Shown: positions 24,557 to 44,668 of the stretch, one piece after another | How positions within the stretch are numbered: position 1 is the stretch's first letter | Layout: each line of letters opens with the position of its first letter | DNA from: Porticoccaceae bacterium | GTDB lineage: Bacteria > Pseudomonadota > Gammaproteobacteria > Pseudomonadales > Porticoccaceae | Length of the DNA stretch: 57,826 nt | Assembly: GCA_029252555.1 (NCBI GenBank) | Contig: JAQXBF010000029.1 | Coordinates: 1 to 57,826 of the forward strand | Direction of reading: 5' to 3' | Program-made: the position numbers and the translations under genes | Notes under the pieces: model-generated | The model's input: the letters and a program-made list of their open reading frames with translations, nothing else | Database searches by the model: none | Told to the model about the DNA's origin: nothing

Positions 24557-24564
24557 AAGGCGCT

Positions 24565-25350
24565 TCAATCCTTTAGCCAGTTGGGTTTTCGTTTTTCCAA
24601 AAAGGCATTTAAACCCTCCTGACCCTGCTGGCTAACGCGAATAGTCGCAATCACTTCACAGGTATGATCAATCAAACTCTGATCTATAGTTTGACCGCTG
24701 ACATCAGAGACCAACTGTTTGGCTGCCACAACAGCTTCAGGGCCATTTGCCAACACAGCCTCAATAAGCAGGTTAATCTGATCGTCCAAATTCTCGGCAT
24801 CAACGACCTCAGTCAGCAAGCCAATTTGCATCGCTTTATGTGCGTCAAAACGTTCTGCGGTAATGAAGTATCGTCGTGCCGCTCTTTCACCAATCGCCGT
24901 AATCACATAGGGGCTGATAGTCGCCGGCACCAACCCAATCTTGACCTCACTCAAACAAAAGCTCGCCGCACTGGTTGCCACCGCCATATCACAACAACTC
25001 ACCAGCCCCACAGCACCACCGAAGGCCGCACCCTGAACTCGGGCAACAGTGGGTTGGGGCATCTGATGTAGCGTTTTAAGCATCAGCGCCAGAGCCTGAG
25101 CATCCTGAAGGTTTTCATCATAGGAATAGGTCGCCATGCGTCTCATCCAATCCAGATCGGCACCGGCAGAAAAGTTTTTGCCCTCAGAACAAAGCACCAT
25201 AATCCGCACATCAGCATTAGCCGCAACCGCAGCAAAGGCATGGGTAAGCTGCAAAATAATGTGATCATCAAAAGCATTGTGCTTATCCGGATTATTCAAC
25301 CTAACCCAAGCAACCCCGCTATCATCAATCTCAGTAATCACTTCACTCAT
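24565..25350 (-). CDS. liuC: Methylglutaconyl-CoA hydratase (enoyl-CoA hydratase family)
   Basis: A crotonase-fold protein of 261 residues with VAWVRLNNPDKHNAFDD-like opening, oxyanion loops NFSAGADLDWM and GAAFGGAVGLVSC, and the C-terminal KRKPNW. It hydrates 3-methylglutaconyl-CoA to HMG-CoA. The ATG at 25350 has aggtgg eight bases upstream and is preferred over the GTG at 25362, which is itself in that Shine-Dalgarno. The spacing to liuB (126 bases) is the largest in the operon. Confidence 0.9.
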   Translation of the reverse strand: MSEVITEIDDSGVAWVRLNNPDKHNAFDDHIILQLTHAFAAVAANADVRIMVLCSEGKNFSAGADLDWMRRMATYSYDENLQDAQALALMLKTLHQMPQPTVARVQGAAFGGAVGLVSCCDMAVATSAASFCLSEVKIGLVPATISPYVITAIGERAARRYFITAERFDAHKAMQIGLLTEVVDAENLDDQINLLIEAVLANGPEAVVAAKQLVSDVSGQTIDQSLIDHTCEVIATIRVSQQGQEGLNAFLEKRKPNWLKD

Positions 25351-25476
25351 ACTAAATTCCACCTAACTCTAATCCTACCTAACCCTAATTCCACTCAATG
25401 CTCCGATTCAGGTTCCACAGCACTGATTCAAGAGAACCTTCGCTCCGCTCAAGATGACTTAGGCCTGCGTCCTAAG
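25351..25476. other. Spacer in the liu operon with repeat-like sequence
   Basis: This is the only wide gap inside the liu operon. It contains near-repeats of cctaactctaat / cctacctaaccctaat / ccac at 25363-25396 and then cttcgctccgctcaagatgac at 25438-25459 in parts, wording that looks like a dispersed intergenic repeat. I see no gene and no terminator hairpin with a T tract. Confidence 0.3.
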
Positions 25477-27084
25477 TTACATTCTAAACAGCCCAAACTT
25501 AGTCTCACCAATTTCCCGGTTGTGGCTCGCCGAAATCGACAGCCCCAAAACCCTGCGAGTATCCGCCGGATCAATCACGCCATCATCCCATAGCCTAGCC
25601 GACGCATAATAGGGATGACCCTGATTCTCATAATTATCAATAATTGGCTGCTTAAAGTCGGTCTCCTCCTGAGCACTCCAGCTTGTGCCATCGCGCTCAA
25701 ACTTATCGCGGGTAACCTGCGCCAAAACCCCCGCCGCCTGCTCACCACCCATCACCGAAATGCGCGCATTGGGCCACATAAACATAAAGCGAGGATCATA
25801 AGCGCGACCACACATACCATAGTTACCAGCGCCAAAAGAGCCACCAATCACCACAGTAAACTTAGGTACATTAGCCGTAGCCACCGCCGTCACCATCTTG
25901 GCGCCATGCTTGGCAATGCCATCATTTTCGTACTGCTTACCCACCATAAACCCAGTGATATTTTGCAGAAAAACCAGTGGAATTTTGCGCTGAGCGCAGA
26001 GCTCAATAAAGTGCGCACCTTTCTGAGCCGACTCACCAAATAAAATGCCATTGTTAGCCACAATACCCACCGGATAACCAAAGATGCGGGCAAAGCCACA
26101 AATCAGCGTAGTGCCATAGAGTGCCTTAAACTCATCAAAATCAGAGCCATCCACAACCCGGGCAACAACCTCGCGCACATCGTATTGCTTGCGCGAATCA
26201 GCAGGGATTACGCCATAAATTTCATCACCACTACAGACTGGCTCAACCGCATCAGCGATATCACCATTCACCGGCTTAACACGGTTTAGCCTAGCTACCG
26301 CCGAGCGTGCCAACTCCAGCGCGTGGTGATCATTGTTAGCCAGATGGTCTGCCACTCCAGAGGTGCGGCAGTGCACATCGCCACCGCCCAATTCCTCCGC
26401 ACTGACAACCTCACCCGTGGCGGCTTTGACCAGAGGCGGGCCACCGAGAAAAATCGTGCCCTGGTCCTTAACAATAATAGACTCGTCTGCCATGGCAGGC
26501 ACATAGGCACCGCCAGCAGTGCAAGAGCCCATCACAGCAGCAATTTGAGGGATATTTTGTGCAGACATATTGGCCTGATTAAAAAAGATACGACCAAAAT
26601 GATCACGGTCTGGGAACACCTCATCCTGCCGAGGCAGATTGGCACCGCCAGAGTCGACCAGATAAATACAGGGTAAGTTATTCTCCGCAGCAATAGCCTG
26701 CGCGCGCAGATGCTTTTTAACAGTCAGAGGGTAATAGCTACCACCTTTAACCGTCGCATCATTGGCAACCACCACACATTCCTGGCCACTAACTCTGCCA
26801 ATACCGGTAATAATGCCCGCGGCCGCAACATCTTCACCGTAAACATTGTGAGCCGCCAAGGCTGAAAACTCTAAAAATGGGGAGCCCGGGTCCAGCAGTT
26901 TTTGCACCCGCTCCCGTGGCAATAACTTGCCGCGACCCCTATGGCGATCGCGGGCTTTTTGGCCACCACCGCCATTAATTTTGGCGATAGTGGTTTTAAG
27001 GTCATCGACCTGAGCCTGCATTGACTCGTAATTAGTTTGATACTCAGTGCTGGCGATATTGATCTTGGAGTGAATAATGGTCAT
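25477..27084 (-). CDS. liuB: Methylcrotonyl-CoA carboxylase, carboxyltransferase beta subunit
   Basis: The 535-residue protein has the two-part carboxyltransferase crotonase fold. The N-half shows [44 protein letters not shown] in parts and [14 protein letters not shown]. The C-half shows [19 protein letters not shown]-like wording, [11 protein letters not shown], and [20 protein letters not shown] in parts. The length and the motif set are those of MCC beta and not propionyl-CoA carboxylase. It acts with LiuD on 3-methylcrotonyl-CoA. It starts 18 bases after liuA. Confidence 0.93.
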
Positions 27085-27102
27085 GGTCGTTTTCTCCGGC
27101 GC

Positions 27103-28272
27103 TTAAACCGTTTGGGCAAAAAGCTCGCGGCCAATCAACATGCGCCGCACCTCAGAGGTACCAGCACCGATCTCATAAAGCTTGGCATCGCGAAGTAATC
27201 GCCCGGTGGGATATTCATTGGTGTAGCCATTACCGCCCAGTGCTTGAATAGCCTGCAGCGCCATCTGAGTGGCTTTTTCAGCGGTAAACAAAATCACCGC
27301 TGCGGCATCTTTGCGAGAGTCCTGACCTAGATCACAGGCCCGGGCAACGGCATAGAGATATGCTCTAGAGGCATTTAGATCAGCGTACATATCTGCCATT
27401 TTGCCCTGCATTAACTGGAACTCGCCAACAGGAGTACCAAACTGCTGGCGCTCATGAACATAGGGCAGCACAACATCCAGGCAGGCTTGCATAATGCCAA
27501 CCGGGCCACCAGAGAGAACCGTGCGCTCGTAATCCAAACCCGACATCAGCACAGCGACACCGCGGCCCTCGCCGCCGAGAATATTCTCGACTGGCACTTC
27601 ACAGTCTTGAAATACTAACTCACAGGTGTTGGAGCCTCGCATGCCCAACTTGTCGAGCTTTTGATGGCGAGTGAACCCGGGGAAGTCGCGCTCGACAATA
27701 AAAGCGGTCATGCCCTTTGAGCCAGCGTCGATATCAGTCTTGGCATAAATAATATAAGTGTGGGCATCTGGGCCATTGGTGATCCACATCTTGTTGCCAT
27801 TCAGCACATAATGGTCACCGCGTTTGTCGGCCTTGAGCTTCATGCTCACCACATCAGAGCCCGCATTGGGCTCGCTCATGGCCAGCGCGCCAATATGTTC
27901 ACCCGAGCAAAGCTTGGGCAGATACTTTTGTTTTTGCTCTTCAGAACCATTTTTGTGCAGCTGATTAACGCAGAGATTGGAGTGGGCACCATAGGAAAGG
28001 CCAACTGATGCCGAGGCTCGAGAAATCTCCTCCATGGCCACGCAATGGGCGAGATAACCCATCCCGGTGCCACCGTATTGTTCATCCACGGTAATACCCA
28101 GCAGGCCCATATCACCCAGCTTGCGCCACAAGCCCATAGGGAATTCATTACTACTATCTATCTGGGCAGCCTGGGGGGCAATCTCGGTGGCACAAAACTG
28201 GAAAGCGCTGTCGCGAAGTATGTCGATATCTTCGCCAAGATTAAAATTTAATGTGGGGTAGGTCGTATTCAT
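27103..28272 (-). CDS. liuA: Isovaleryl-CoA dehydrogenase
   Basis: A 389-residue acyl-CoA dehydrogenase with [30 protein letters not shown], the catalytic glutamate in [14 protein letters not shown] (the unusual early position typical of isovaleryl-CoA dehydrogenase) and the closing [19 protein letters not shown] in parts with [18 protein letters not shown]. It oxidises isovaleryl-CoA to 3-methylcrotonyl-CoA with FAD, passing electrons to ETF. It begins three bases after the regulator gene liuR, so both share the promoter at 28689. Confidence 0.93.
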
Positions 28273-28275
28273 AGA

Positions 28276-28656
28276 TTATGTCCGTCCGGTAGATTTCAGG
28301 GCGGTTACACAATCAACTTCCGCCTGATTAAGGTCTTTAAGCAGTTTGCTGATATCGTCGAGCTGCTGGTTAAGTTTGGTTCGCTGGGACTGAATGGCAT
28401 CAATCAGTTTTTTAAGCTGATCGACATTGGTTTTGCCCGGCTCGTACATGTCGATAATTTCCCGAGAATCATCCAGAGATAGCCCTAGCCGTTTACCGCG
28501 CAAAATAAGCCTGAGCCGGGTGCGATCTGCAGGACTGTAAACCCGAGTTTGCCCTCGGCGGGCAGGGGACAGGAGCCCCAGCTCTTCGTAGTGGCGGATG
28601 GTTCTGGTGGTGACCTCAAACTCTTTGGCAAGCTCAGAAATGCTGTATTCAGCCAT
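28276..28656 (-). CDS. liuR: MerR-family regulator of the leucine/isovalerate operon
   Basis: The 126-residue protein has a MerR winged helix (YSISELAKEFEVTTRTIRHYEE in parts, GLLSPARRGQTRVYS, DRTRLRLILRGKRLGLSLDD in parts) and a C-terminal coiled coil that forms the dimer. It lacks a cysteine metal site. Comparative genomic work has described LiuR as the regulator of liu genes in many gammaproteobacteria, usually as an acyl-CoA-responsive repressor. Its place as first gene of the operon and the palindrome just upstream support that here. Confidence 0.9.
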   Translation of the reverse strand: MAEYSISELAKEFEVTTRTIRHYEELGLLSPARRGQTRVYSPADRTRLRLILRGKRLGLSLDDSREIIDMYEPGKTNVDQLKKLIDAIQSQRTKLNQQLDDISKLLKDLNQAEVDCVTALKSTGRT

Positions 28657-28768: not shown

Positions 28769-29551
28769 TTAATCCAGTTTTAGGTCCATCTGATACTGGA
28801 ACAACTCAGTGTTATAAAGCGCCACCAAATAATCCACCAGCATCTCCCTGTCATCATCCTGATAATAGGAGCGACGCACCAAACTCAGCAGAGGGAAACC
28901 CACCGACACCTGCAAATGTGCGGCAATGGCTTCTGTGGCCGGCACCGCACTAATAGTCTGGTTGATATGGCTGACAATCATGCCGCTCTCGCGGAAATAC
29001 TGGTGTCGGGATTGGTCGATAAAGATATCGGTAGTGTCCGGCATATCCACGCCGGCACTCCAGCTATCAAAATAGCCAAAAAAAGCGCCAGCACGCTCTC
29101 GCTTGCGCACTAAATGGAACAATGAATCATTATTACCCAGTGTGAACTCCGCGCGGATATTTTGCGGTGGCACAACCACTCGGCAATCCAGCACTTCGGC
29201 CACTGAGTTTTGGGCAATGCTGTCAATTTCCTCCAACACTCCCAGCAATGGTGCCTGCACCGGTTTCGGTGTGTACTTGTAGATAACGTGGGTGCCTTTG
29301 CCACGCGCCCGCTCTACCAGATCTTCTGCGGCCAGTTCATTTACAGCCCGCTTAACCGTGATACGCGATACATCAAATGCCTCTGCCAGTTCTTTCTCGC
29401 TGGGCAGTTTCTCCCACTGATGGAATGTGCCGTCAATAATATAGCCTTTGATCAGGCTGTAGAGTTGGTAATAGAGTGGAGAGGGCAAATCTTCTGAAAC
29501 CCTGTTGCGCTGGCTTTTGCTAAAAAGTATTGCGCCTGTGTGGATCGTCAT
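28769..29551 (-). CDS. GntR-family (HutC/UTRA) transcription regulator
   Basis: A protein of about 260 residues from the ATG at 29551 (MTIHTGAILFSKSQ). It has a GntR winged helix (SPLYYQLYSLIKGYI, KLPSEKELAEAFDVSRITVKRA in parts, RARGKGTHV) and a C-terminal UTRA ligand domain (about 100-255, with LFHLVRKRERAG and LVRRSYYQDD). Longer forms from TTG 29635 or ATG 29617 would run through the palindrome at 29599, so I reject them. The HutC group binds small catabolic effectors. It is divergent from the CoA-transferase/HyuAB run and is probably its repressor. Confidence 0.88.
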   Translation of the reverse strand: MTIHTGAILFSKSQRNRVSEDLPSPLYYQLYSLIKGYIIDGTFHQWEKLPSEKELAEAFDVSRITVKRAVNELAAEDLVERARGKGTHVIYKYTPKPVQAPLLGVLEEIDSIAQNSVAEVLDCRVVVPPQNIRAEFTLGNNDSLFHLVRKRERAGAFFGYFDSWSAGVDMPDTTDIFIDQSRHQYFRESGMIVSHINQTISAVPATEAIAAHLQVSVGFPLLSLVRRSYYQDDDREMLVDYLVALYNTELFQYQMDLKLD

Positions 29552-29598
29552 AGGGGTCTCATGGGTTGATGATTTGTGTTGTACGCCAATTGATACTT

Positions 29599-29616
29599 TG
29601 GTATAACAATATACCA
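29599..29616. promoter_or_regulatory. Palindromic operator between gntR and the CoA-transferase operon
   Basis: The 18-bp inverted repeat tggtataacaatatacca has 6-base arms (TGGTAT/ATACCA) and contains the GT-TA-AC spacing common in HutC-type operators. It lies 48 bases before the gntR start and about 100 bases before the small ORF at 29720, so one site could control both directions. Confidence 0.6.
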
Positions 29617-29719
29617 TTGTAAAACGGTTTTCCAATTAGCGGCCTGCTGGTCAGTATTTTACCGGTCAATAGCGTGGCATTGTAGGCTTTTTGGTTGTAA
29701 CTAGGGCATTTGGAGAACG

Positions 29720-29863
29720 ATGAAGCTAAACACCCTCGATCATTCATCTTATTCCGCCAGGATTCAAACTCAGGCAAGCCGAAAAGGCCTGCGTAAGGAG
29801 TTTGTCTGCCTGCCCAAACTACGTTCTGAATATTTAACAGCCAACGTCGGGGGTGTGCAATGA
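29720..29863 (+). CDS. Small ORF (47 residues) translationally coupled to the CoA-transferase gene
   Basis: An ATG at 29720 with ggag four bases ahead opens a 47-residue frame (MKLNTLDHSSYSARIQTQ at the start, ending NVGGVQ). Its TGA overlaps the ATG of the CoA-transferase gene in the sequence ATGA. The product is basic, without a signal or membrane segment, and I know no relative. The overlap and the ribosome site suggest a coupled leader peptide, but a chance ORF of this size is possible. Confidence 0.4.
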   Translation: MKLNTLDHSSYSARIQTQASRKGLRKEFVCLPKLRSEYLTANVGGVQ

Positions 29864-31059
29864 AACAGGCACTGGCTGGTGTTCGCGTGCTCGACCTGAC
29901 ACATATGCTGTCTGGGCCCTACGGCAGCATGATTCTCGCCGATCTGGGGGCAGAGACCATTAAGGTAGAGCCCTGCCATGGTGAGGGCACCCGAAAGTTA
30001 TTGGCCACAGACCCAAAAAACTCTCTCGACGGTATGGGTGCTTATTACATCACCCTAAACCGCAATAAAAAGAGTGTGGCTGTTGACCTTAAAACACCCG
30101 AGGGTCTGGCGCTGTTCAAACAGCTAGTGACCAATGTAGATATTGTGATCAGCAACTTTGGCGCTGGTGTGCCTGAGCGTTTGGGCATTGATTATGAGTC
30201 TTTGGCCCAGGTCAACCCGCGTATTATTAGCTGCACTGTCTCTGGTTTTGGTTCAGATGGCCCCGGCTCCAAGCGGCCTGCCTTTGATCAGGTGGCTCAG
30301 GCCATGGGTGGTGGTATGTCGATTACCGGGCCAGATCCAGAGAATCTGGTGCGCGCCGGTATTCCGATCGGCGACCTGGGCGGTGGCATGTTTGGCGTGA
30401 TGGGCATTCTCGCAGCGCTGTATGAACGCGAGCGCAGTGGGGTTGGCCAGCATGTGGATATCTCCATGCTCGATTGCCAGATATCGATGCTAAATTATAT
30501 GGCCACCATGCACTTTCTCTCTGGCGATGACCCCTACCCAATTGGCAATAGCCATTTTGTGCATGTGCCTTACAACACCTTTACCTGTTCCGATGGCCAT
30601 GTAGTGATTGCCGTGATCACGGATAATTTTTGGCAGAATCTTAAAGAGGTGGTCAACTGCCCTGAGTTTGATGACGCCAAATATGACAGTCAGCCGGGTC
30701 GCTGGGAAGATCGAGATATGATCAACAGCACCCTGAATACGGTCTTGAGCACCAATACCTGCCAGCACTGGCTGAATCTGTTTGAGGCAAGCCGCATTCC
30801 CTGTTCACCGGTCAATTCTTTGAGCCAGGCGCTCTCCGATAGCCAGGTGATGCACCGCAATATGGTGGTGGACTTAAAACACCCTAATGGCAATGCCACC
30901 AAGGGGCCGGGTAACCCGATCAAACTGTCCAGAAGTGGCGATGAAGTATTTACCCCGGCACCTCTGTTAGGTGAGCATACTGATGAGGTAATGAGCGATT
31001 TGCTCGGTCTCTCCGTAAATGAAATATCGCAGATGAGAAAGCAGGGGATTATTCGATAA
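29860..31059 (+). CDS. Class III (CaiB/BaiF) CoA-transferase
   Basis: A 399-residue family III CoA-transferase with GVRVLDLTHMLSGPYGSMIL in parts, GAETIKVEPCHGEGTR, NRNKKSVAVDLKTPEG, and the catalytic aspartate region VDISMLDCQISML. It should move CoA between a donor such as succinyl-CoA and a carboxylic acid. The next gene, an HMG-CoA lyase relative, starts in the stop codon (TAATG). Human SUGCT, of the same class, uses HMG and glutarate, so an HMG-like acid is a reasonable guess. First main gene of a probable GntR-controlled operon. Confidence 0.88.
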   Translation: MKQALAGVRVLDLTHMLSGPYGSMILADLGAETIKVEPCHGEGTRKLLATDPKNSLDGMGAYYITLNRNKKSVAVDLKTPEGLALFKQLVTNVDIVISNFGAGVPERLGIDYESLAQVNPRIISCTVSGFGSDGPGSKRPAFDQVAQAMGGGMSITGPDPENLVRAGIPIGDLGGGMFGVMGILAALYERERSGVGQHVDISMLDCQISMLNYMATMHFLSGDDPYPIGNSHFVHVPYNTFTCSDGHVVIAVITDNFWQNLKEVVNCPEFDDAKYDSQPGRWEDRDMINSTLNTVLSTNTCQHWLNLFEASRIPCSPVNSLSQALSDSQVMHRNMVVDLKHPNGNATKGPGNPIKLSRSGDEVFTPAPLLGEHTDEVMSDLLGLSVNEISQMRKQGIIR

Positions 31060-31976
31060 TGCCAGAAGCCGTTTTAATCACTGATGTTGGCCCTCGCGAT
31101 GGCCTGCAAAACCAGCCAAAAATTCTCACTATAGAGCAGAGGATAGCGCTGATTGGCGCTATTGCCGAGGCCGGTGTCCCGCAAATTGAGGTGGGTAGCT
31201 TTGTCTCGCCCCGCGCAGTGCCTGCGATGGCAGGCACTGATCAGGTTTTTGCTGCACTGAGCCAACAGCCCTACTACAGCACGCCAAGCCTTGCGCTTAT
31301 TCCCAATATGAAAGGTTATGAACTGGCCCGCGACGCCGGTGCCAAAACCGTGACCATGGTGCTCTACGCCAGTGATGGCATGGCACAAAAAAATGCCGCC
31401 ATGACTATGGCTCAAGCAGAAGACATTACTATAGATATTCTCAAGCTGGCCAAACAGGAAGGCATTCAAGTGATTGCCACGGTTGCAGTCGCTTTTGCCT
31501 GCCCATTTGATGGGGCAACAGATCCTAAATTAGTAGAAACCATTGCTGGTAAGTTTATTCAGGCAGGCGCAGACCAGTTGGTGTTGGCCGATACTATTGG
31601 TTCGGCGCACCCGCAGCAGGTGCGGGATATTACCGCTTCGCTGGTTAAAAGCCATGGTGCCGCCCAATTGGGATGCCATTTTCATGACACCAGAGCGATG
31701 GGGCTGGCCAATGTCTTTGCAGCTGTGGAGTCTGGTATTCGCCGCTTTGACAGCTCTATTGCAGGTTTGGGAGGCTGCCCATTTGCTCCCGGTGCATCGG
31801 GCAATGTGGCTACAGATGATATTGCCATGATGCTAGGGCAGATGGGCTTTGATACAGGGATTGATATTAATAAATTGATGCAAGCGTCGGATTTGGCGCA
31901 GCAGTTGACTGGCACAGCGCCTGGGGGAAGATCTAAGCCCTGGCTGCAGGGTCATTTGGCCAAGATAGCGAGTTGA
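31059..31976 (+). CDS. HMG-CoA-lyase-like enzyme, second copy
   Basis: A 305-residue DRE-TIM barrel with TDVGPRDGLQNQ, IEVGSFVSPRAVPAMA, LADTIGSAHPQQV, CHFHDTRAMGLAN and the cysteine loop GLGGCPFAPGASGN. All catalytic residues known for HMG-CoA lyase are kept. It differs from liuE at many sites, for example ADTIGSAHP instead of GDTIGAGTP, so it may act on a related branched 3-hydroxyacyl-CoA. It overlaps the CoA-transferase gene by one base, which strongly suggests that the two form one pathway: activation followed by cleavage. Confidence 0.88.
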   Translation: MPEAVLITDVGPRDGLQNQPKILTIEQRIALIGAIAEAGVPQIEVGSFVSPRAVPAMAGTDQVFAALSQQPYYSTPSLALIPNMKGYELARDAGAKTVTMVLYASDGMAQKNAAMTMAQAEDITIDILKLAKQEGIQVIATVAVAFACPFDGATDPKLVETIAGKFIQAGADQLVLADTIGSAHPQQVRDITASLVKSHGAAQLGCHFHDTRAMGLANVFAAVESGIRRFDSSIAGLGGCPFAPGASGNVATDDIAMMLGQMGFDTGIDINKLMQASDLAQQLTGTAPGGRSKPWLQGHLAKIAS

Positions 31977-32042
31977 GCCGATAGCATTGAAAATTGAAAA
32001 GTATGATTAAAAACAAAAAATAAGAATAGTTCGGAGATAAAA

Positions 32043-34112
32043 ATGAGCTACAGATTAGGGGTAGATGTAGGGGGCACTTTCACAGACCTTCTGCTGATCA
32101 ACGAAAAGACAGGGGAAACCCACACGGCTAAAGTACCGTCCACGCCAGAGGATTCTTCCATTGGCGTGCTCAATGGTATTGCCCGTATTTGCGATGAATC
32201 CGGTGTTAATCCAGCGGATGTCAGCAGGGTGATGCACGGCACCACAGTGGCCACCAACGCGGTGCTGACGGGTCGCGGCGCCAAAGTAGGGCTGGTGACT
32301 ACCGCTGGCTATGAAGATACGCTGCAAGTGGCGCGATCGTTCTGCCCCGGTGGTTTGGGTGGGTGGGTCAGCTTTGTTAAAAAGCCTCTTTTAGCCCCCC
32401 TTGAATTAACTATTGGTGCCCATGAACGCATTGGTGCTGACGGTGAAATAGTTTCTGGCCTCGATGAAGACCAGTTGCGCAAAGACCTTAAGACTCTCCG
32501 CGCTAAGGGCGAAGTTGAAGCTCTGACCATCTGCTTTATCAATGCCTACATTAATGGTGCCCATGAACAGCGCGCCAGGGAAATTGCCGCAGAGATATTT
32601 ACTGACACGCCCATTTCCATCTCCAGTGATGTTGTGCCAGAGATGCAGGAATATGAGCGCACCGAAACCACGGTAGTTAATTCCTATGTCCGCCCAGAAG
32701 TGGCCAACTACGTGAGCAACTTGCAGGCGGCGCTGGATGAGAGGATGGGTTCTGACACCCAGCTGTCGATTCTGCGCTCCGATGGTGGTCTGGCCTCGGC
32801 CCGAGCCTCGGCTGAGTCACCGGTAAATATGCTGATGTCCGGCCCAGCTGGCGGCGTTTCCGGTGCAATTTACTTTTGTAGCCGCGCTGGTTACGACGAT
32901 ATTCTGACCTGCGATATGGGTGGTACCTCTACAGATGTAGCCTTGATTCAAAACTCCCGCGCCCGTGTGCGCCGTGAAACCATTGTCGCCGATGTGCGTG
33001 TGCGCGCGCCTTCAGTGGATGTGCGAACGGTGGGTGCTGGCGGCGGTTCCATTGCCTTTGTTCCCGAGTTAACCAAAGCATTGCGTGTGGGCCCTGAGTC
33101 TGCAGGTGCAGTGCCGGGCCCGGCTTGCTATATGAAAGGGGGCGAGCAGCCCACGGTATGCGATGCCAATGTAGTGCTGGGTTATCTGCCCTCTGATGTG
33201 CAGTTGGGTGGAAAGATGGAGATTAATCGCGAGGCCTCTGTGGCCGCGGTACAGTCAGTGGCAGACGCTATTGGCATTGACCTGATGGAAGCCGCGGAAG
33301 GCATTATCAAAATTGTAAACGAGTCGATGTTCGGCGCTCTGCGCCTGGTATCGGTGGAGCAGGGTTATGACCCTCGAGATTTTGCTCTGGTTGGCTTTGG
33401 TGGTGCGGGCCCCCTACATGCCAATGCACTGGGCGTGCTGACCGATGCTTGGCCAGTGATTATTCCACCGGGCCCCGGTGTTCTCTGTGCCTATGGTGAT
33501 GCAACTACTCAGGTACAGGACGAAGCGGCACGTACTTATCTAACCATGGCCAGTGATCTTAGCGACGCAAAGTTGACCGCTGATTTACATGAGCTTCAGG
33601 TGCGCGCGGGTGAGGCTCTGTTAAAAGATAATATTCCAGCCTCAGTCCATGAAATTACCTATCAGGCTGATCTGCGTTATGCAGGGCAGGCTTTCCAAAT
33701 CACTATCGACTTTACCGAAGCCGAGCTTGAAAAGAAGGGTGTGGCTCTGCTGACCGATCAATTTGATGCGGAACACGAGCAACTGTTTACCTTTAAGTTG
33801 GATGATGGCCACGAGATATTAATGATTCGTGCGGTGGCCAAAGCTCGTGCCAAATCTATTGCCGAGCGCCAAATTGGCGAAACCGGAATGACTCTGGAGC
33901 AGTGCAAAATTATTGCCAGCCGTTTCTATTACGAAGGGAATTGGTACGACGCCAATATCTATGATCGCAATAAACTCAATACGGGCTTAAAAGTACCAGG
34001 TCCCGCTATTGTAGGTGAGATGGATTCAACTACCGTTGTATTGCCGGGCTTTGTTGCCGAGGTCGATGCGGTGGGCAACTTACTGATCAACCCAGCGAAT
34101 GGAGGGCAATAA
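32043..34112 (+). CDS. hyuA: Hydantoinase/oxoprolinase A subunit (HyuA)
   Basis: A 689-residue ATP-dependent hydantoinase/5-oxoprolinase/acetone-carboxylase-type large subunit. It has the actin-like phosphate motif YRLGVDVGGTFTDLLLI in parts, VMHGTTVATNAVL, a second ATP-site motif TCDMGGTSTDVALI, VGAGGGSIAF, and VGFGGAGPLHANAL. With HyuB it cleaves cyclic amides at the cost of ATP or, in relatives, carboxylates ketones. A cggagat Shine-Dalgarno precedes the ATG and the HyuB gene follows after one base. Confidence 0.9.
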   Translation: MSYRLGVDVGGTFTDLLLINEKTGETHTAKVPSTPEDSSIGVLNGIARICDESGVNPADVSRVMHGTTVATNAVLTGRGAKVGLVTTAGYEDTLQVARSFCPGGLGGWVSFVKKPLLAPLELTIGAHERIGADGEIVSGLDEDQLRKDLKTLRAKGEVEALTICFINAYINGAHEQRAREIAAEIFTDTPISISSDVVPEMQEYERTETTVVNSYVRPEVANYVSNLQAALDERMGSDTQLSILRSDGGLASARASAESPVNMLMSGPAGGVSGAIYFCSRAGYDDILTCDMGGTSTDVALIQNSRARVRRETIVADVRVRAPSVDVRTVGAGGGSIAFVPELTKALRVGPESAGAVPGPACYMKGGEQPTVCDANVVLGYLPSDVQLGGKMEINREASVAAVQSVADAIGIDLMEAAEGIIKIVNESMFGALRLVSVEQGYDPRDFALVGFGGAGPLHANALGVLTDAWPVIIPPGPGVLCAYGDATTQVQDEAARTYLTMASDLSDAKLTADLHELQVRAGEALLKDNIPASVHEITYQADLRYAGQAFQITIDFTEAELEKKGVALLTDQFDAEHEQLFTFKLDDGHEILMIRAVAKARAKSIAERQIGETGMTLEQCKIIASRFYYEGNWYDANIYDRNKLNTGLKVPGPAIVGEMDSTTVVLPGFVAEVDAVGNLLINPANGGQ

Positions 34113-34113
34113 A

Positions 34114-35994
34114 ATGACGGCAAGATTATTAGAAACCAATAAAGAGCCTCTAAACAGTGTTGATGTCGATGGAGTGACGGTCGATATTATTGAAAATGCC
34201 CTGCGCAATGCGCGGGAAGAAATGGATGCGGTGCTATTTAGAACCGCCATGTCTCCTGGTATTCGCGAGCAGGGCGACTGCTTCCCCATGATCGCCAACA
34301 AAGAGGGCAAGATGGTAGTGGGCCAGTTTGGTTCATTTATCGGGCCCTTTTTAGACGCCTATGATGAGGAGATCGAAGAGGGGGACATCATCCTTACCAA
34401 CGATCCCTATATGTGTAATGCGGCGGTCTCCCACTTACCCGATTGGGTGGTGCTGGTGCCAGTATTTAAAGATGGACGCCATATTGCCTGGTCCGCAATG
34501 TTCGGTCATATGTCTGATAATGGGGGTATGGTGCCGGGCTCGATTCCTATCGAAGCAACCACCATCTTTCAGGAAGGCATTCGTATTCCGCCGACCAAGC
34601 TGTATAAGAAAGGCGTACTGCAGTCAGATTTACTAGAGCTGATTTTGCATAATGTGCGCACGCCCCAGTGGAACCGTTTTGACTTAAACGCGCTGGTGGC
34701 AGCCTGTAATACCGCTGCCAAACGCTGTGTCGAATTGGCAGTGCGTTTTGGTGATGATGTGCTGTTCTCGACTATGGATATTATGTTGCAGCGCAACTAT
34801 GACGCCATGAAACATATTATCGGTATGTTTATCCCCGAAGAGCCCCGCGAGTTTGAAGACTATATTTGCGATGACGGCATGGGTATGGGCCCTTACAAAA
34901 TTAAGTGCACCATGTGGCGGGAGGGTGAGAAGGCGATCTTTGATTTTTCCGGCACTGACCCCCAGGCTCAGAGTTCGGTGAACTTCTTCCTTAACGAAGA
35001 TATGTTCAAAATGTTCTTTGGCTCGTTCACCATTAATGTGGTGGACCCGCAGATTGTGTTTAACGATGGTTTCTATGATCTGGTGGATGTGCGTATTCCT
35101 CAGGGCACTTTATTGAAGCCTAATTACCCAGCGGCACTGTCGGGCAGAACCCATGCATTGGGTCGTATCTTTGATGTGCTGGGTGCTTTGCTGGGCATGG
35201 GTGCGCCAGAGATGATGTTGAATGCGGCAGGCTTCTCTGATTCGCCTCACCTGTTCTTCTCGGGCTACGACACCCGACCGGAAAAAGGCGGCGAGTGGTT
35301 CCAGCTATTCCAGATTGGCTTTGGTGGTGTTCCTGGCCGGCCCGTGGGCGATGGCCCTGATGGTCACAGCCTGTGGCCTGGGTTTACCAATGTGCCCAAT
35401 GAATTTATTGAGTCTTACTTTCCGTTGCGTATCGAACGCTACGAGACTATTCCTGATTCTGGTGGTGCCGGTTTGCACCGCGGCGGCAATGGTTTGAGTG
35501 TGGCCTATCGCTTCCTCTGTGATGGCGATGTAGGTATTCATGATGAACGCTGGCTGACTTATCCCTGGGGTGTGCTTGGGGGTGAGACGGGTCTGCGGTC
35601 GACCAAGCGGCTAGTGTGCGTGGATGGTTCTGAAGAATGGCTTCCAGCCAAGGCCGAGGGTATCAAGGTTAAAGCTGGCGATATGTTGTATTTCAATACC
35701 TGGGGTGGCGGTGGTTGGGGCGACCCATTCGCTCGCGATCCGGAGCTGGTGCGCCAGGATATTAATCGACGGCTGGTAACAGTCGAGGGAGCCAAGCGCT
35801 ACGGCGTTGTGATGGCCGCGGATGGATCTGTAGATGAGGACGCAACTAACAGCTTACGCTCTGAATTAAAAGCCGCCGCTGGAGAGCCAGCACTATTTAA
35901 TTTTGGTGGTGATGTAGAAGAGATTCGCAGCCGTTGTGAGGAGGAAACTAAACTTCCTGCACCGGTAAAACCGACCTTCATTGGGGCATCTTGA
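34114..35994 (+). CDS. hyuB: Hydantoinase/oxoprolinase B subunit (HyuB)
   Basis: A 626-residue hydantoinase B protein (VDVDGVTVDIIENALRNAREEM in parts, RTAMSPGIREQGDCF, ILTNDPYMCNAAVSHLPDW in parts, and the GGGGWGDPFARDPELV tail). I chose ATG 34114 because tggaggg lies about 7 bases ahead. The ATG at 34099 lacks a site. Together with HyuA it forms the catalytic unit. The precise reaction (N-methylhydantoin, 5-oxoproline, ketone carboxylation) cannot be decided from sequence. Confidence 0.9.
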   Translation: MTARLLETNKEPLNSVDVDGVTVDIIENALRNAREEMDAVLFRTAMSPGIREQGDCFPMIANKEGKMVVGQFGSFIGPFLDAYDEEIEEGDIILTNDPYMCNAAVSHLPDWVVLVPVFKDGRHIAWSAMFGHMSDNGGMVPGSIPIEATTIFQEGIRIPPTKLYKKGVLQSDLLELILHNVRTPQWNRFDLNALVAACNTAAKRCVELAVRFGDDVLFSTMDIMLQRNYDAMKHIIGMFIPEEPREFEDYICDDGMGMGPYKIKCTMWREGEKAIFDFSGTDPQAQSSVNFFLNEDMFKMFFGSFTINVVDPQIVFNDGFYDLVDVRIPQGTLLKPNYPAALSGRTHALGRIFDVLGALLGMGAPEMMLNAAGFSDSPHLFFSGYDTRPEKGGEWFQLFQIGFGGVPGRPVGDGPDGHSLWPGFTNVPNEFIESYFPLRIERYETIPDSGGAGLHRGGNGLSVAYRFLCDGDVGIHDERWLTYPWGVLGGETGLRSTKRLVCVDGSEEWLPAKAEGIKVKAGDMLYFNTWGGGGWGDPFARDPELVRQDINRRLVTVEGAKRYGVVMAADGSVDEDATNSLRSELKAAAGEPALFNFGGDVEEIRSRCEEETKLPAPVKPTFIGAS

Positions 35995-36092
35995 GAGTTG
36001 GCCCAATAAGGCTTTTGGCGAATTAAATTTAAAAAACGAAATAAATAATAAATAGAAATCTAAATTTTAAAAGACAGATGAGGGGAAATATC

Positions 36093-38621
36093 ATGAAAAT
36101 GCTAAGCGTTAAAAACGTTATGTCGATGGCGATATTGGCCAGCATAGCTACAACCTCGGTGGCAGAAATTGCTATTGAGGAAATTGTTGTTTCTGCACGG
36201 AAACGCGCGGAAAATTTGCAGGAAGTGCCGATTGCGGTTTCTGCGTTTACCGAAGCTCAGATTGAAAGTGCTGGTATCCAGCGGCCAGGTGACTTTATTG
36301 GGTTGATGCCCAATGTCACTATGGTTGACTCAGCTAACGTCGGTGATACTCAGGTGAGTATCCGCGGTATTGTTTCTACCCGTGATGCTGAATCAACCTT
36401 CGCCTATGTGGTTGACGGCGTCTTGGTTACCAACCCCAATGGCTTTAATGAAGAGCTAATGGACGTGAGCCAAATTGAAGTGCTAAAAGGTCCCCAGGGC
36501 GCACTCTATGGTCGTAATGCGGTAGCCGGTGCCATACTGGTGACGACAAATCGTCCAGATGAAGAGTTCGAGGGCAAGGTTAAAGTAGGCGCCGGTAATA
36601 ACGGCTCCAGCACTGCCAGTCTAACGCTAAGTGGTGGTTTGGGCGATGGAATGCTTGGCAGATTGAGTATGAACCGTCGTGAAACTGATGGCCATTATAG
36701 CAATGCCTACACTGGTGCAGACTCAGTTGATTTTCTTAAGGACACCACAGTTCGTGGTCGTCTGATTTGGGATGTCAATGAAGAGCTATCACTGGATATG
36801 CGGGCTGGAATGAGTGAAGTCAAAGGCGGTGCTATAAACTTTAATGCCGTGTTTGCTATTCCAATGTTCGCTGAAGGTTTTGGCCTTGGCCCAACCTTTT
36901 TTAAAGATGTGAATGAGCACGAGTTTATCTTCTCCAACAATGTGCCTGGTGAAAACGAGCAAGAGACAACGGAATTTTCGATCAAGGCAGACTGGGATCG
37001 TGAAGATTATGATATCAGTGCGATCTTTAGCTACAGTGACTTGGAAGAGTATCTGCTGTCTGATGGCACCAGTGCCACATTTTATGGTTATGAGGTGACA
37101 CCTTCTTGTCAGGCAGATCGAGCCACATTAAACAACTTGCCAACCTCCATGGGTGGGGCGGGTCGCGATGACCTATTTGGTGGTTTCTTTGGCCCCTTCG
37201 GCGTCTTCCCTGGCGCTGGTGGATCAGCTCCTGACTTTACCGGTATCTATGGCCCCTACACGCCAACATCCTGTGACGGTTACCAGTATCAGGAGCGCAA
37301 TCAGTCAGATACCAGTTTAGAAATTCGTCTGACCTCCGAAGCCGATGCCGAGATAAGCTGGATTGCCGGTGCCTATGTCGCGGATATTGAGCGTGAGGTT
37401 GTTGTTGCCTATGGTGCAGATACTGGCAATGGTTTCCTCCGTCAGCCTTATGTTCCTGCTACTGGCCCTAACCCAACTGACCTGATGTTTAACGATAAGT
37501 TTGACACTTCAGTGATGGCTATCTTTGGCCAGGTTGAGGTTGATCTGAGCGATGATATGGAACTGGCATTTGCTGCTCGTTACGATCGTGAAGAGCGAGA
37601 TGTGCAGAATCAGGTGCCCAATGTAGCTGCTTCTGGGCTTAGTGTGAATGCTCTGACCAACCCAATTAACCCAGCTTTTGCCGCTAACCCAAATGGCATA
37701 CCAAATCGTGATGCGACCTTTAGCCAGTTTCAGCCCAAAGTGACCTGGAGCTGGAATGCCGCAGAGGATATCAATGTCTACGCTAGCTGGGGTGTTGGTT
37801 TCCGCAGCGGTGGCTTTAACTCCATTGGTAGTGAGGCGCTGATTGATCTCTGGTACAACAATAACGGTGACGGCACCAACCCCGGTGCACTGGTCGATGC
37901 CAAGCTATCGGTTAAAGATGAGTATGACAAAGAAGTGTCTACCAGCTTTGAGTTAGGTAGCAAGATGGAGTTTTTGGATAACCGCCTGCGTGTCAATGCA
38001 TCGGTATTTAAAACTGAAGTTGACGACAACCAATTCTTTGAGTTTTATGCAGGGCCCTTTGGCTTAATGCGAGTGGTTACCACAATCGAAGAGTTAGAGA
38101 TTCAAGGTTTCGAGATTGACTTCAATGCCGTCGTTACTGAAAACCTGTCAATCTTTGGTGGAGCCGGTATTCTAGATAGTGAAATCATCAAGAATACTCA
38201 CCGTCCAGCTACGCAGGGCAACGATGCACCTCAGGCGCCAGAGCGCACTTATAACCTGGGTGCACAGTTCGAAATGTCTGTTGCGCAGGGTATCGAAATG
38301 ACTGCTCGCTTAGATTGGCAGCATGTTGGTGAGATGGCCTTCCACAGCTTACAGGGTGAGGAGACACCAACGATTTGGCAGGTGTTCTACCCTGGTGTGC
38401 CCATCGCGCAGAACTTCAGTAAAGCGACCCGTGATGATTACTCCACGCTGAATGCGAGAATTTCTTTCGATAGTGAAAACTGGAGCCTGACATTCTGGGG
38501 TCGCAACATCACTGATGAGAACTATCTTGAAGAAGTGATTCCCGCGCCAGAATTTGGTGGTTCATTTATTCACCCAGGTGCTAAAGACTCTTATGGTGTC
38601 GATTTTAACTACCGCTTCTAG
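36093..38621 (+). CDS. TonB-dependent receptor, catabolic-cluster type
   Basis: The 842-residue receptor starts at ATG 36093, six bases after gagggga. The earlier ATG at 36078 overlaps that site. It has a signal peptide (to about TSVA), a TonB box and plug (IEEIVVSARKRAENLQEVPI in parts, VLKGPQGALYGRNAVAGAIL) and a large barrel ending in YGVDFNYRF. The plug wording is that of the large receptor group found in marine heterotrophs for organic substrates. It lies 98 bases behind hyuB, so it probably takes up the substrate of the cluster. A terminator follows. Confidence 0.9.
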   Translation: MKMLSVKNVMSMAILASIATTSVAEIAIEEIVVSARKRAENLQEVPIAVSAFTEAQIESAGIQRPGDFIGLMPNVTMVDSANVGDTQVSIRGIVSTRDAESTFAYVVDGVLVTNPNGFNEELMDVSQIEVLKGPQGALYGRNAVAGAILVTTNRPDEEFEGKVKVGAGNNGSSTASLTLSGGLGDGMLGRLSMNRRETDGHYSNAYTGADSVDFLKDTTVRGRLIWDVNEELSLDMRAGMSEVKGGAINFNAVFAIPMFAEGFGLGPTFFKDVNEHEFIFSNNVPGENEQETTEFSIKADWDREDYDISAIFSYSDLEEYLLSDGTSATFYGYEVTPSCQADRATLNNLPTSMGGAGRDDLFGGFFGPFGVFPGAGGSAPDFTGIYGPYTPTSCDGYQYQERNQSDTSLEIRLTSEADAEISWIAGAYVADIEREVVVAYGADTGNGFLRQPYVPATGPNPTDLMFNDKFDTSVMAIFGQVEVDLSDDMELAFAARYDREERDVQNQVPNVAASGLSVNALTNPINPAFAANPNGIPNRDATFSQFQPKVTWSWNAAEDINVYASWGVGFRSGGFNSIGSEALIDLWYNNNGDGTNPGALVDAKLSVKDEYDKEVSTSFELGSKMEFLDNRLRVNASVFKTEVDDNQFFEFYAGPFGLMRVVTTIEELEIQGFEIDFNAVVTENLSIFGGAGILDSEIIKNTHRPATQGNDAPQAPERTYNLGAQFEMSVAQGIEMTARLDWQHVGEMAFHSLQGEETPTIWQVFYPGVPIAQNFSKATRDDYSTLNARISFDSENWSLTFWGRNITDENYLEEVIPAPEFGGSFIHPGAKDSYGVDFNYRF

Positions 38622-38656
38622 AGCACAATAAATAGTTAAAATAGCGTAGTATCAAC

Positions 38657-38710
38657 AGCGGGCTGTTTCTCTTAAGGAGTTTTATTTTTAAGAGAACAGC
38701 CTGCTTTTTT
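38657..38710 (+). terminator. Terminator after the large TonB receptor gene
   Basis: A long imperfect hairpin pairs agcgggctgtttctctta (38657-38674) with taagagaacagcctgct (38689-38705), with one bulged T and a G-T pair, followed by six T residues. It starts 36 bases after the stop codon and separates the receptor from the amidase gene. Confidence 0.8.
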
Positions 38711-38735
38711 ATGACGGGTAAAAAGAGTAATTATA

Positions 38736-39329
38736 ATGGCATCAAATAATCTCCAGCAAAATCATCTGGGACTCAGCAGCAAACCAGCCCTTCTTCTGGT
38801 GGATATGATTAATGGCTTTACTGACCCCGACTGCCCCCTGGGAACTCATTGTCCAGAGGTTATTACCGCTAATTGCGAATTGCTAGGCGCCTTTCGTAGC
38901 AAAGGTCTACCGGTTTTCTTTACCACTGTGGTCTATCACAATGATCAGCAGGCCAGTGTATTTCGTGCCAAGGTGCCGGCGCTGAATGTGCTGGAGCCAG
39001 AGTCTCACTGGGTGGCGCTGCACTCGAGGATGGGTCGGTTAGAGTCTGAACCCTTAATAGAGAAGCAATGGGCCAGTGCCTTTTACAAAACCGACCTGAA
39101 TCAGCAGCTTAAAGCTTTGTCTGTGGATTCATTGGTTGTTACAGGCTTAACCACCAGCGGCTGTGTGCGTGCATCAGCAGTGGACGCATTGCAGAGTAAT
39201 TTTCAGGTGGTGGTGGCTAGAGAGGCTGTGGGAGATCGCAATCAAGAGGCCCATGAAGCCAATCTGTTTGATTTAGATGCCAAGTATGCAGATGTTGTTT
39301 CGGTCGTTGACATTATTGCTATGTTATAA
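38736..39329 (+). CDS. Isochorismatase-family amidohydrolase, N-carbamoylsarcosine-amidase-like
   Basis: A 197-residue cysteine hydrolase. The triad is visible: Asp in LLLVDMINGFTD, Lys in AFYKTDLNQQL, Cys in TTSGCVRASAVDAL, with the cis-peptide segment VVTGLTTSGC. The late stretch EAVGDRNQEAHEANLFDLDAKYADV in parts is wording shared by N-carbamoylsarcosine amidases and maleamate hydrolases. In creatinine breakdown, N-methylhydantoinase (HyuAB) is followed by N-carbamoylsarcosine amidase, so its place 2.7 kb behind hyuB is suggestive. A terminator lies ahead of it, so it may have its own promoter. Confidence 0.85.
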   Translation: MASNNLQQNHLGLSSKPALLLVDMINGFTDPDCPLGTHCPEVITANCELLGAFRSKGLPVFFTTVVYHNDQQASVFRAKVPALNVLEPESHWVALHSRMGRLESEPLIEKQWASAFYKTDLNQQLKALSVDSLVVTGLTTSGCVRASAVDALQSNFQVVVAREAVGDRNQEAHEANLFDLDAKYADVVSVVDIIAML

Positions 39330-39386: not shown

Positions 39387-39866
39387 TTAGAGCGCCGCGT
39401 AACCTCCGCGATGGAAAACCAGTGGCTTATGGCCATGGTCCGTAATCTCAAGTACCTTACCCACCATAATCACGTGATCTCCGCCATCGTACTTATGGGC
39501 GATAGTGCATTGGAAACAGGTGCTGTAGTGAGACAGTAAGGGCACGCCTGAAAGCCCCTCCTGGGTTTCCAACCCAGCAAACCTATCAGTACCAGTTTTA
39601 GCAAAGCGATTAGAAAGCTCTTCCTGATCCTGTGCCAGAACGTGAATCGCATAGGCTTTTGCCGCTATAAAGTCCTCGAAGCAGTTGGTATCTCGACCAA
39701 TACTCCAAAGTACCAGAGCAGGGTCCAGAGAAACGGAGTTAAAGCTGTTAGCTGTCATACCGATCTTCTGGCCATTTTTGCCCAGAGCAGTTACCACAGT
39801 TACGCCAGTGGCAAAACTGCCCAACGCATTGCGAAAGTCGAGCTTTGTGAAATTAGAAATAGACAT
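39387..39866 (-). CDS. Flavin reductase domain protein
   Basis: About 159 residues from ATG 39866 (MSISNFTKLDFRNALGSFAT in parts). It has the FMN-binding split-barrel wording of HpaC-like flavin reductases (LGSFATGVTVVTA, GMTANSFNSVSLDPALVLWS in parts, HVIMVGKVLEI). The 23 residues ahead of it in the open frame look non-coding. It could supply reduced flavin to a monooxygenase, but none lies nearby. It is 162 bases downstream of fadH on the same strand and converges on the amidase gene, so it may belong with either group. Confidence 0.82.
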   Translation of the reverse strand: MSISNFTKLDFRNALGSFATGVTVVTALGKNGQKIGMTANSFNSVSLDPALVLWSIGRDTNCFEDFIAAKAYAIHVLAQDQEELSNRFAKTGTDRFAGLETQEGLSGVPLLSHYSTCFQCTIAHKYDGGDHVIMVGKVLEITDHGHKPLVFHRGGYAAL

Positions 39867-39974
39867 GGGATTCTTATTAAGTATCGCTTGATGAATCAAG
39901 GCGGCAATGATGGGGGGATTACCCTTTGGTTGCAAGGTTTAAAGGTAAAATACTCGCCGTACCCTGACAGGCGC

Positions 39975-39999
39975 CGGTTATCAAATTATCTTATAACCG
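39975..39999. other. Inverted repeat upstream of the flavin reductase gene
   Basis: CGGTTAT (39975-39981) pairs with ATAACCG (39993-39999) around an 11-base A/T-rich centre. It may be an operator for the flavin reductase gene or a weak hairpin behind fadH. There is no T tract in either direction. Confidence 0.25.
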
Positions 40000-40028
40000 A
40001 CAGCCGGGTCTGAGTTATTGCTCTAGCA

Positions 40029-42927
<2,899 letters not shown>

Positions 42928-43921: not shown

Positions 43922-44668
43922 ATGAATAGGAATCTATCAAAATTACTGCAGTCGCTTGCAGGTGTGGTTATGTTATCAATGGCTAGTCTTTCAATGGCCG
44001 CAACTAATACGTAAGACTTTGACGCTGATGAAAATGAGCGAGGTGGGCAACCACTGAACTTTGGCGACCTTACCGTTTACGTTGGAAAGCTTAATGGCGC
44101 AGCGAAGCCCGATCCAAACGTAAGAAGTGCTTACGCTTATCTAGATGCGGGCAATAAAGCTGGTCTGGGTGTGTGTCAAGGTTCAGTAGACAACAGTGCT
44201 GGTGGCGGAAGCCCAAGTGCTAACAAGTGTTTTACCGCAGGCGTTGCTTATGCCGGCTATGATGACAATATGCAGAAAAACGGCGTACTTGGTTTTGTCT
44301 TCTATGTCACCAAGACTGTTTCAGAAGTTGGTCTTCACGGTGGGCCGGTTAGCGGGCACGATGATCTTATCGATGGAACTAAAATTCTGGTCTGGGCCGA
44401 TTCTGCGACTGATGGCGGCTTTAAGTTGTTAAGCGTCGTTGGTGGTCAAATCAGTCTTGGCTTTAAGTTATTCACAACGGCTATCTTTGGCTCTATGAGT
44501 AAGTTCTACAAAGATTACATATACGATAACTTCAAGATTGGTACAACAACAGCTAACAACCTCTACGTAGCTGGTATCAATGAAGTGCCAATTCCTGCAG
44601 CCGTATGGTTGTTTGGTTATGCACTGCTTGGACTGACTGGTTTGCGTCGCCGCAAGGTAGCGGTTTAA
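43922..44668 (+). pseudogene. PEP-CTERM-type surface protein with a stop codon after its signal peptide
   Basis: An ATG at 43922 with aggag seven bases ahead opens MNRNLSKLLQSLAG and a signal peptide ending SLSMAA. Four codons later TAA stops it at 44012-44014. The same frame then runs unbroken for 217 residues (DFDADENERGGQPLNFGD in parts, LVWADSATDGGF) to a typical sorting signal: VPIPAAVWLFG, a hydrophobic segment, and RRRK. Family knowledge: exosortase/PEP-CTERM systems sort such proteins to the envelope. No exosortase is in the window. A GTG at 44171 would give a leaderless 165-residue product. One base change (CAA or similar to TAA) explains the lesion. Confidence 0.8.

Follow-up and report, generated by a model that had tools for sequence, protein, structure and literature searches.

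Which substrate could call for an ATP-dependent ring hydrolase, an amidase, a coenzyme A (CoA)-transferase and a C-C lyase under one regulator? This question is raised by a predicted operon in a 57,826-nucleotide stretch of DNA (the window), part of a 2.30-Mb SAR92-type genome of a Porticoccaceae bacterium (contig JAQXBF010000029.1). A first-pass annotation made from the sequence alone had described a GntR regulator facing a 47-residue open reading frame (ORF), a class III CoA-transferase (CaiB), a lyase (HMGL) resembling 3-hydroxy-3-methylglutaryl (HMG)-CoA lyase, HyuA, HyuB, a TonB receptor and an amidase. The ORF list, together with Pfam and NCBIfam profile searches, confirmed all of these genes in the order and on the strands described. 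The tight junctions could be read directly in the sequence, with ATGA and TAATG overlaps and, when HyuB starts at 34,114 (MTAR), a 1-base gap. We tentatively propose that the operon serves to import and degrade a cyclic imide with a five-membered ring, most likely a 2,3-substituted maleimide. The enzyme families are all known and their combination is what looks new; no paper describing it was found in the open-access literature, most subscription papers lying outside the reach of this search. A widespread and well conserved gene set of marine bacteria would thereby predict a concrete chain leading from a cyclic imide to an acyl-CoA and an oxo acid.

In the route that we envisage, the TonB-dependent outer-membrane receptor (36,078–38,621, plus strand; Pfam barrel and plug domains, kept in SAR92 relatives) would take up the compound, although a receptor of this kind is not diagnostic of its substrate. 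HyuAB would open the ring at the cost of ATP to give a substituted maleamate, and the isochorismatase-fold amidase would free ammonia to give a substituted maleate; for both, the enzyme class is read from the sequence and the substrate is proposed. A LeuC/LeuD-type hydratase, whose genes accompany the module in some relatives and whose part may be taken by the leucine-biosynthetic enzyme in the window's genome, would then form a substituted malate, onto which CaiB, judging by its class, would move CoA. Finally, the HMGL-like lyase, in which one residue of the HxHDT motif is changed, would cleave the thioester to an acyl-CoA and a 2-oxo acid. Enzymes of the LeuCD type hydrate or dehydrate cis-dicarboxylates, with 2-isopropylmaleate as the normal intermediate of LeuCD itself. 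Because an imide hydrolase and an amidase acting in series yield a dicarboxylate, and LeuCD acts on cis-dicarboxylates, a substituted maleimide is indicated.

The route is supported in the first place by the conserved gene order and by the joint presence or absence of the genes. A scan of named genomes returned 382 stretches, 369 of them encoding a relative, and the best 80 were kept as loci; many of these are short and cut by contig ends. Genes in these and the other loci were called as simple longest-ORF or GC3 (third-position GC) calls, an error-prone procedure that missed the amidases of loci L143 and L139, both recovered by tblastn. In 45 of the 80 loci, CaiB, HMGL, HyuA and HyuB are consecutive genes of a single strand, and in 12 all seven genes are kept in order with GntR opposed. 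Flanking genes were counted in the 60 of 94 loci that extend 6.5 kb or more to either side of HyuA, the 34 loci with less being omitted; within 6.5 kb of HyuA, these well-flanked loci encode CaiB (46), an HMGL-like protein (52), the amidase (38) and a TonB receptor (36). Among 35 genomes of the same genus, HyuA of this subfamily was found in 19 (with a fragment of 30 residues in one more, G019), the amidase, at no less than 60% identity, in 19 and CaiB in 18; HyuA and amidase co-occur in 18 and HyuA and CaiB in 17, none of the three was found in 14, and several mismatches fall at contig ends. HyuA matches at E 1e-180 or better were present in 14 of 398 sampled Pseudomonadota genomes, the window's own included. 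Carriers belong to SAR92/Porticoccaceae, Halieaceae, Alteromonadaceae, Colwelliaceae and other orders and classes of the Pseudomonadota, cultured type strains among them. Cultured carriers include Seongchinamella unica GH4-78, Halioglobus pacificus KCTC 23430, Pseudohaliea rubra DSM 19751 and Chromatocurvus halotolerans DSM 23344, the last having no amidase that could be seen close to its module. We considered it very unlikely that the genes are neighbours devoid of a joint function or accessories of the leucine-degradation operon that immediately adjoins the module in SAR92 and includes an HMG-CoA lyase of its own, since outside SAR92 this operon is not beside the module while the gene order is often kept, and since the genes come and go together within the genus. 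The role as leucine-pathway accessory was set aside on the first of these grounds.

HyuA (32,043–34,112) and HyuB (34,114–35,994 from the likely start, the ORF opening at 34,099; Pfam 6e-142), both on the plus strand, are by sequence most probably an ATP-dependent enzyme of the hydantoinase/oxoprolinase type, for which an imide is the proposed substrate. HyuA (family assigned by Pfam) is the ATP-binding and HyuB the metal-binding subunit; the top solved match of both is the N-methylhydantoinase 7hk5 (456 bits, 1.6e-135 for HyuA; 251 bits for HyuB), followed by the caprolactamase 6yra (404 and 183 bits). HyuA contains the phosphate motifs DVGGTFTD and DMGGT as well as the adenosine motif GAVPGP, each of which is present in all 77 long HyuA proteins of the loci; here and below, motif counts for HyuA, HyuB and the amidase omit short proteins and those below identity limits. 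PMC8453981 lists the ATP motifs DxGGTxTD, DxGGT and GxxPGP of the A subunit together with metal-site motifs, and the Asp-His-Asp-His tetrad of HyuB aligns with the CapB site given there for caprolactamase (D41, H99, D102, H124). Among relatives, the HyuB motifs QGDCFP, SHLPD and GHMSD are kept in 72, 68 and 71 of 72 proteins, respectively. Like the caprolactamase CapAB of Pseudomonas jessenii, a lactam hydrolase, HyuAB appears as a two-subunit ATP-dependent hydrolase with common ATP and metal motifs; unlike CapAB, it scores far below the caprolactamase equivalogs NF050156 and NF050157 (547.5 and 189.6 bits, cut-off 1000) and has different companion genes. The first-pass annotation had also suggested that HyuAB could act as a ketone carboxylase; in that case, it would supply CaiB and HMGL with a beta-keto acid. 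Such carboxylases are ATP-dependent members of the same superfamily, and the match to acetophenone carboxylase 5l9w reached 8e-88. Against the N-methylhydantoinase scores, however, the solved carboxylases fall far behind (5l9w, 299 bits for HyuA and 127 for HyuB; acetone carboxylase 5m45, 247 and 49), the NCBIfam acetophenone carboxylase models gave 303 and 124 bits against cut-offs of 1500 each, no third carboxylase subunit was found among the module genes, and the amidase would be left without a role. We therefore rejected this reading, which we regard as scarcely credible.

The amidase (38,736–39,329, plus strand; isochorismatase fold by Pfam) carries the motifs TTSGCVRAS, GDR and HEANLFD. 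All three also occur in 3ot4, which is labelled a putative isochorismatase in the database and which, together with 3uao, we take to be the maleamate amidase NicF of nicotinate breakdown; on this assumption, the shared TTSGCVRAS and HEANLFD support the maleimide route. NicF differs from the present case in its setting, as the module lacks nicotinate ring enzymes, and the amidase scores slightly lower with 3ot4/3uao (108.1 bits) than with the N-carbamoylsarcosine amidases 26st (137.7 bits) and 1nba (115.4 bits). In the amidase group, the Cys of T-T/A-x-G-C-V-R is kept in 43 of 44 relatives and GDR in 41 of 44. These solved matches also speak for a hydantoin route, in which HyuAB would be of the N-methylhydantoinase type, the amidase would act on an N-carbamoyl amino acid as in creatinine breakdown, and CaiB and HMGL would process a special side chain. 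In the creatinine pathway, too, an enzyme of the HyuAB type opens the ring before an isochorismatase-fold amidase acts, and the enzymes of that pathway are the nearest solved relatives; an Asp/Glu/hydantoin racemase-like gene near the modules of L130, L138 and L133 would fit as well. The similarity is at the family level only, however; the operon genes include none that would handle an amine or an amino acid, and CaiB, HMGL and, in relatives, LeuC and LeuD, all additions compared to the creatinine pathway like the TonB receptor, are left unexplained. We thus consider a hydantoin substrate unlikely. Of the relation to creatinine and N-methylhydantoin breakdown that had been noted at first, the nearest-structure matches hold, whereas the sarcosine-like amine is doubtful: the LeuC/LeuD genes in the relatives' sets and the motifs in common with 3ot4/3uao suggest an imide whose nitrogen is released as ammonia. 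The original idea of a cyclic amide with a branched dicarboxylate skeleton is still the best general description, and its acetyl-CoA-type product becomes only one of several possible CoA products.

The link to LeuC/LeuD was seen in four loci of three class-level genomes (L140–L143), and the complete sets of L140, L141 and L143 support the maleimide route because they hold these two genes. In L140 and L143, a VOC-family-like gene, a sigma-54 PrpR-type activator (PrpR_N domain confirmed by Pfam in L140), TonB, CaiB, HMGL, HyuA, HyuB, amidase, LeuC and LeuD follow on one strand, the L143 amidase being located at 7166–6597 with 51% identity (tblastn), and in L141 these genes recur, with LeuC/LeuD on the opposite strand. 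In the Colwelliaceae and Alteromonadaceae loci L076, L080 and L084, LeuC/LeuD directly follow HyuAB, with CaiB and HMGL elsewhere, and one SAR92 genome (G024, locus L101) displays a LeuD-LeuC-amidase row, its amidase being 61% identical to that of the window. When mapped onto the HyuA tree, the LeuC-linked label (17 of 91 rows; set by hand, including second-type copies or ones some kb away, with short-flank rows scored as lacking LeuC) required 10 changes compared to a shuffled mean of 15.9, and none of 500 shuffles was as low; this implies repeated gain or loss of LeuC. Of the genomes in which LeuC lies in or close to the module, 12 were searched, and all 12 had a further LeuC elsewhere. A precedent for the chemistry is the 2,3-dimethylmaleate hydratase and dimethylmalate lyase of Eubacterium barkeri, where LeuCD-type hydration of a dialkylmaleate is followed by C-C cleavage. 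The proposed route resembles it in both steps and differs in that the operon's cleavage is probably CoA-dependent via the HMGL-like enzyme, an isocitrate-lyase-type enzyme occurring only in islands of relatives.

A second set of genes joins another amidase and PuuE-like hydrolases to LeuC/LeuD, CaiB and HMGL, which again supports the maleimide route. It was found in stretches of eight genomes (G450, G340, G451, G453, G452, G454, G024 and G007), seven of which also contain HyuAB. At the clustering used, amidase 2 with two PuuE-like hydrolases occurs in seven of the eight, a second GntR family in seven, LeuC/LeuD in all eight, and CaiB and HMGL in five each. Six genomes have the LeuC of the second set (tail-2) and a module-type LeuC on one contig, 14–53 kb apart from start to start; in G024, it is the LeuC next to the amidase that is of the module type, and HyuAB lies on a different contig. 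According to PMC9304392, PuuE-like proteins are relatives of the cyclic imidase HxnM. Moreover, 4 of 8 islands have, next to a third amidase, an isocitrate-lyase-family protein with a KKCGH motif (268 bits to methylisocitrate lyase, cut-off 354). The recurring gene grammar is thus one of ring hydrolase, amidase, maleate-type hydratase and C-C lyase. Beside the module in L103, L104 and L105 (G007 and G016) lies a large catabolic island comprising a GST-like (glutathione S-transferase) gene, u28, amidase 2, two PuuE-like hydrolases, the second GntR, a DUF4437 cupin, a further CaiB, an amidohydrolase-2 protein, LeuC2-LeuD2 and more. For the operon companion u28, the fold predicted from five sequences (predicted local distance difference test, pLDDT, 87.5) matches the DUF1849 beta-barrel 6ntr, a match that tells no function.

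The CoA-dependent end of the operon is formed by CaiB (29,860–31,059, plus strand; Pfam 2.7e-121), which covers the CoA_transf_3 profile in full length (1–366 of 366) and is nearest to the solved proteins 10uh (1.2e-76) and succinate-HMG CoA-transferase 9br7 (7e-75), and by the lyase (31,059–31,976, plus strand; Pfam HMGL-like 4e-50), whose nearest solved match is HMG-CoA lyase 2ftp (1.2e-63). The same two enzyme families stand side by side in the HMG-CoA lyase/SUGCT pair; in the module, the lyase has Arg in place of Tyr, and imide and amide hydrolases are attached. Where 2ftp and 2cw6 read HDTY, the window's lyase reads HDTR, and Arg follows HDT or HNT in 74 of 74 HMGL-like proteins encoded within 1.5 kb of HyuA on the same strand (at least 230 residues long and taken with no identity limit; 9 further lyases elsewhere in the loci were listed apart). 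In contrast, Tyr occupies this position in the lyase of the window's own leucine operon and in 3 of 3 readable relatives, 3 more being cut off. This difference supports the maleimide route, and the Arg could hold the extra carboxylate of a substituted malyl-CoA substrate.

Several observations weigh against this proposal, and some of them favour a six-membered imide instead. The lyase passes the HMG-CoA-lyase model NF004283 (306 bits, cut-off 246), and 6nds, named an HMG-CoA lyase by its depositors, has HNTR, so that Arg alone does not exclude HMG-CoA; given 6nds, Tyr after HxHDT may not define the HMG-CoA lyase family, and our confidence in the maleimide route was lowered accordingly. Among the second-set lyases, one of five has HNTY. 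The best solved match of the amidase is N-carbamoylsarcosine amidase rather than 3ot4, of 44 relatives 16 have TTSGCVRAS exactly and 7 have HEA[NS]LFD, and the PuuE-like island proteins reach 102–147 bits against the allantoinase PuuE cut-off of 424.6. In 6 of the 60 well-flanked loci, CaiB and HMGL occur within 6.5 kb without amidase, LeuC or TonB, and LeuC itself is within this distance in only 12. The window's genome has no LeuC at its module and shows a single one besides an aconitase-sized protein; likewise, 17 of 18 other module genomes searched lack LeuC at the module, 15 of them showing only one LeuC match (partial in G472). The biosynthetic LeuCD would therefore have to serve in these genomes, or hydration does not occur, which makes the LeuCD step the weakest link of the route. 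For this reason, a six-membered imide, which we consider doubtful, retains a reasonable probability. Here, HyuAB would open a glutaconimide- or glutarimide-type ring, the amidase would free ammonia to leave HMG or a close relative, and the SUGCT-like CaiB and a true HMG-CoA lyase would produce acetyl-CoA and acetoacetate. This alternative accommodates the model score, the Arg of 6nds and the resemblance of CaiB to 9br7, and an already hydroxylated acid needs no hydratase, which fits the many loci without LeuC. It is at odds with the uniform Arg of the module lyases as opposed to the Tyr of the leucine-operon enzymes, 2ftp and 2cw6, it assigns no role on a 1,3-dicarboxylate to the LeuC/LeuD of the complete sets, and we know of no abundant natural imide of such a kind.

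Returning to the maleimide route, one special form of it, which we think improbable, would serve maleimides derived from chlorophyll or heme, such as hematinic acid (carboxyethyl-methyl-maleimide). Opening by HyuAB, deamidation and hydration would yield a 2-methylhomocitrate-like acid that, once CoA-activated, could be cleaved to propionyl-CoA and 2-oxoglutarate or to glutaryl-CoA and pyruvate, and the second and third imidase/amidase/hydratase/lyase sets of the islands would serve other ring substituents. Relatives of the PrpR-type activator sense 2-methylcitrate, and such a regulator would fit a 2-methylhomocitrate-like intermediate. According to PMC7318184, hematinic acid arises when chlorophyll is oxidised, and the yearly production and degradation of chlorophyll are on a scale of 10^12 kg; the study deals with plants and herbivores and reports hematinic acid in its samples, with maleimides undetectable there and cited from other work on leaves and lake sediments. 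Among the genes of the module, we recognised none known to us as tetrapyrrole-specific. If the substrate were a tetrapyrrole-derived maleimide, the operon would be relevant to the question of what becomes of fragments of chlorophyll and heme.

Control of the operon probably resides with the GntR/HutC-type regulator (28,769–29,551, minus strand), which is divergent from it and combines a helix-turn-helix domain (Pfam GntR 9e-19) with a UTRA ligand-binding domain (4e-18); its best NCBIfam model is HutC at 94.6 bits, below the cut-off of 220. The palindrome TGGTATAACAATATACCA that had been reported for this regulator was found at 29,599–29,616 (no strand), where it overlaps promoter-like boxes on both strands (at consensus level only) and is the likely GntR operator. 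Allowing up to two mismatches, the window has one such site compared to 0.11 expected from shuffles, and in 17 of 17 relatives with facing GntR and CaiB genes a site falls within the gap between the two or on its border. The palindrome, conserved beside the gene, looks like the site of an autoregulated repressor, by which GntR would repress the operon. The kept palindrome and the kept gene order bear out the initial view of one conserved, GntR-linked module. In a weak scan (17 sites found on both strands, 10.8 expected), no plus-strand terminator-like site appeared in the gaps between operon genes; inverted repeats were seen around the end of HyuB and within the TonB-amidase gap.

The 47-residue ORF at the head of the operon (29,720–29,863, plus strand) exists as annotated and is, by sequence comparison, evidently the N-terminal stump of a decayed GST-like gene. 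In tblastn searches, its first 37–39 residues matched the starts of GST-like frames in L032 (54% over 39 residues), L030 (49%) and L053 (45%), and full-length ORFs of 214–236 residues occupy the same place in L030, L032, L103 and L108, the L103 protein having a GST N-terminal domain (Pfam) and the L032 protein matching solved GSTs. The matches to the gene start, together with these full-length counterparts, ruled out a leader peptide.

To the left of the GntR gene, the leucine/isovalerate degradation-type operon (21,765–28,656, minus strand) encodes, as named by eye, HMG-CoA lyase, biotin carboxylase, enoyl-CoA hydratase, carboxyltransferase, acyl-CoA dehydrogenase and a MerR-like regulator, and this neighbourhood is kept in SAR92. 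The right flank (39,387–42,927, minus strand) encodes a flavin reductase, an OYE-type (old yellow enzyme) flavoprotein and an enoyl-CoA-hydratase-like gene, which among the 80 loci stand beside the module only in SAR92-type ones. The flavoprotein matches bile-acid, mycofactocin and bilirubin reductase models, all below cut-off. A link to heme through this gene was dropped because the match to the bilirubin-reductase model (393 bits, cut-off 750) does not surpass those to other OYE models and because the gene adjoins the module only in SAR92-type loci.

Individual loci showed further peculiarities. The module copy of L108 (G021:C21:22000-41000) has stops in CaiB, HyuA and the amidase, reflecting either gene decay or assembly errors. 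The HyuA of L035 is 89% identical to that of the window and falls inside the SAR92 branch of the tree, with its contig filed under a Rhodobacteraceae metagenome-assembled genome, pointing to either misbinning or recent transfer. Upstream of the module in L090 lies an AsnA-like aspartate-ammonia ligase gene, which raises the question of ammonia re-use; a gene of the same length (376 residues) takes its place in L093, the likeness being one of length and position only. SnoaL-like genes accompany the racemase-like genes beside the module in L130 and L138 (by Pfam) and in L133 (by similar N-termini). Elsewhere in the window, the ORF at 44,171–44,668 ends in IPAAVWLFGYALLGLTGLRRRK, presumably a PEP-CTERM-type sorting signal, and a tRNA-Leu gene (45,277–45,361) directly precedes a gene that, named by eye, is trigger-factor-like (45,390–46,709).

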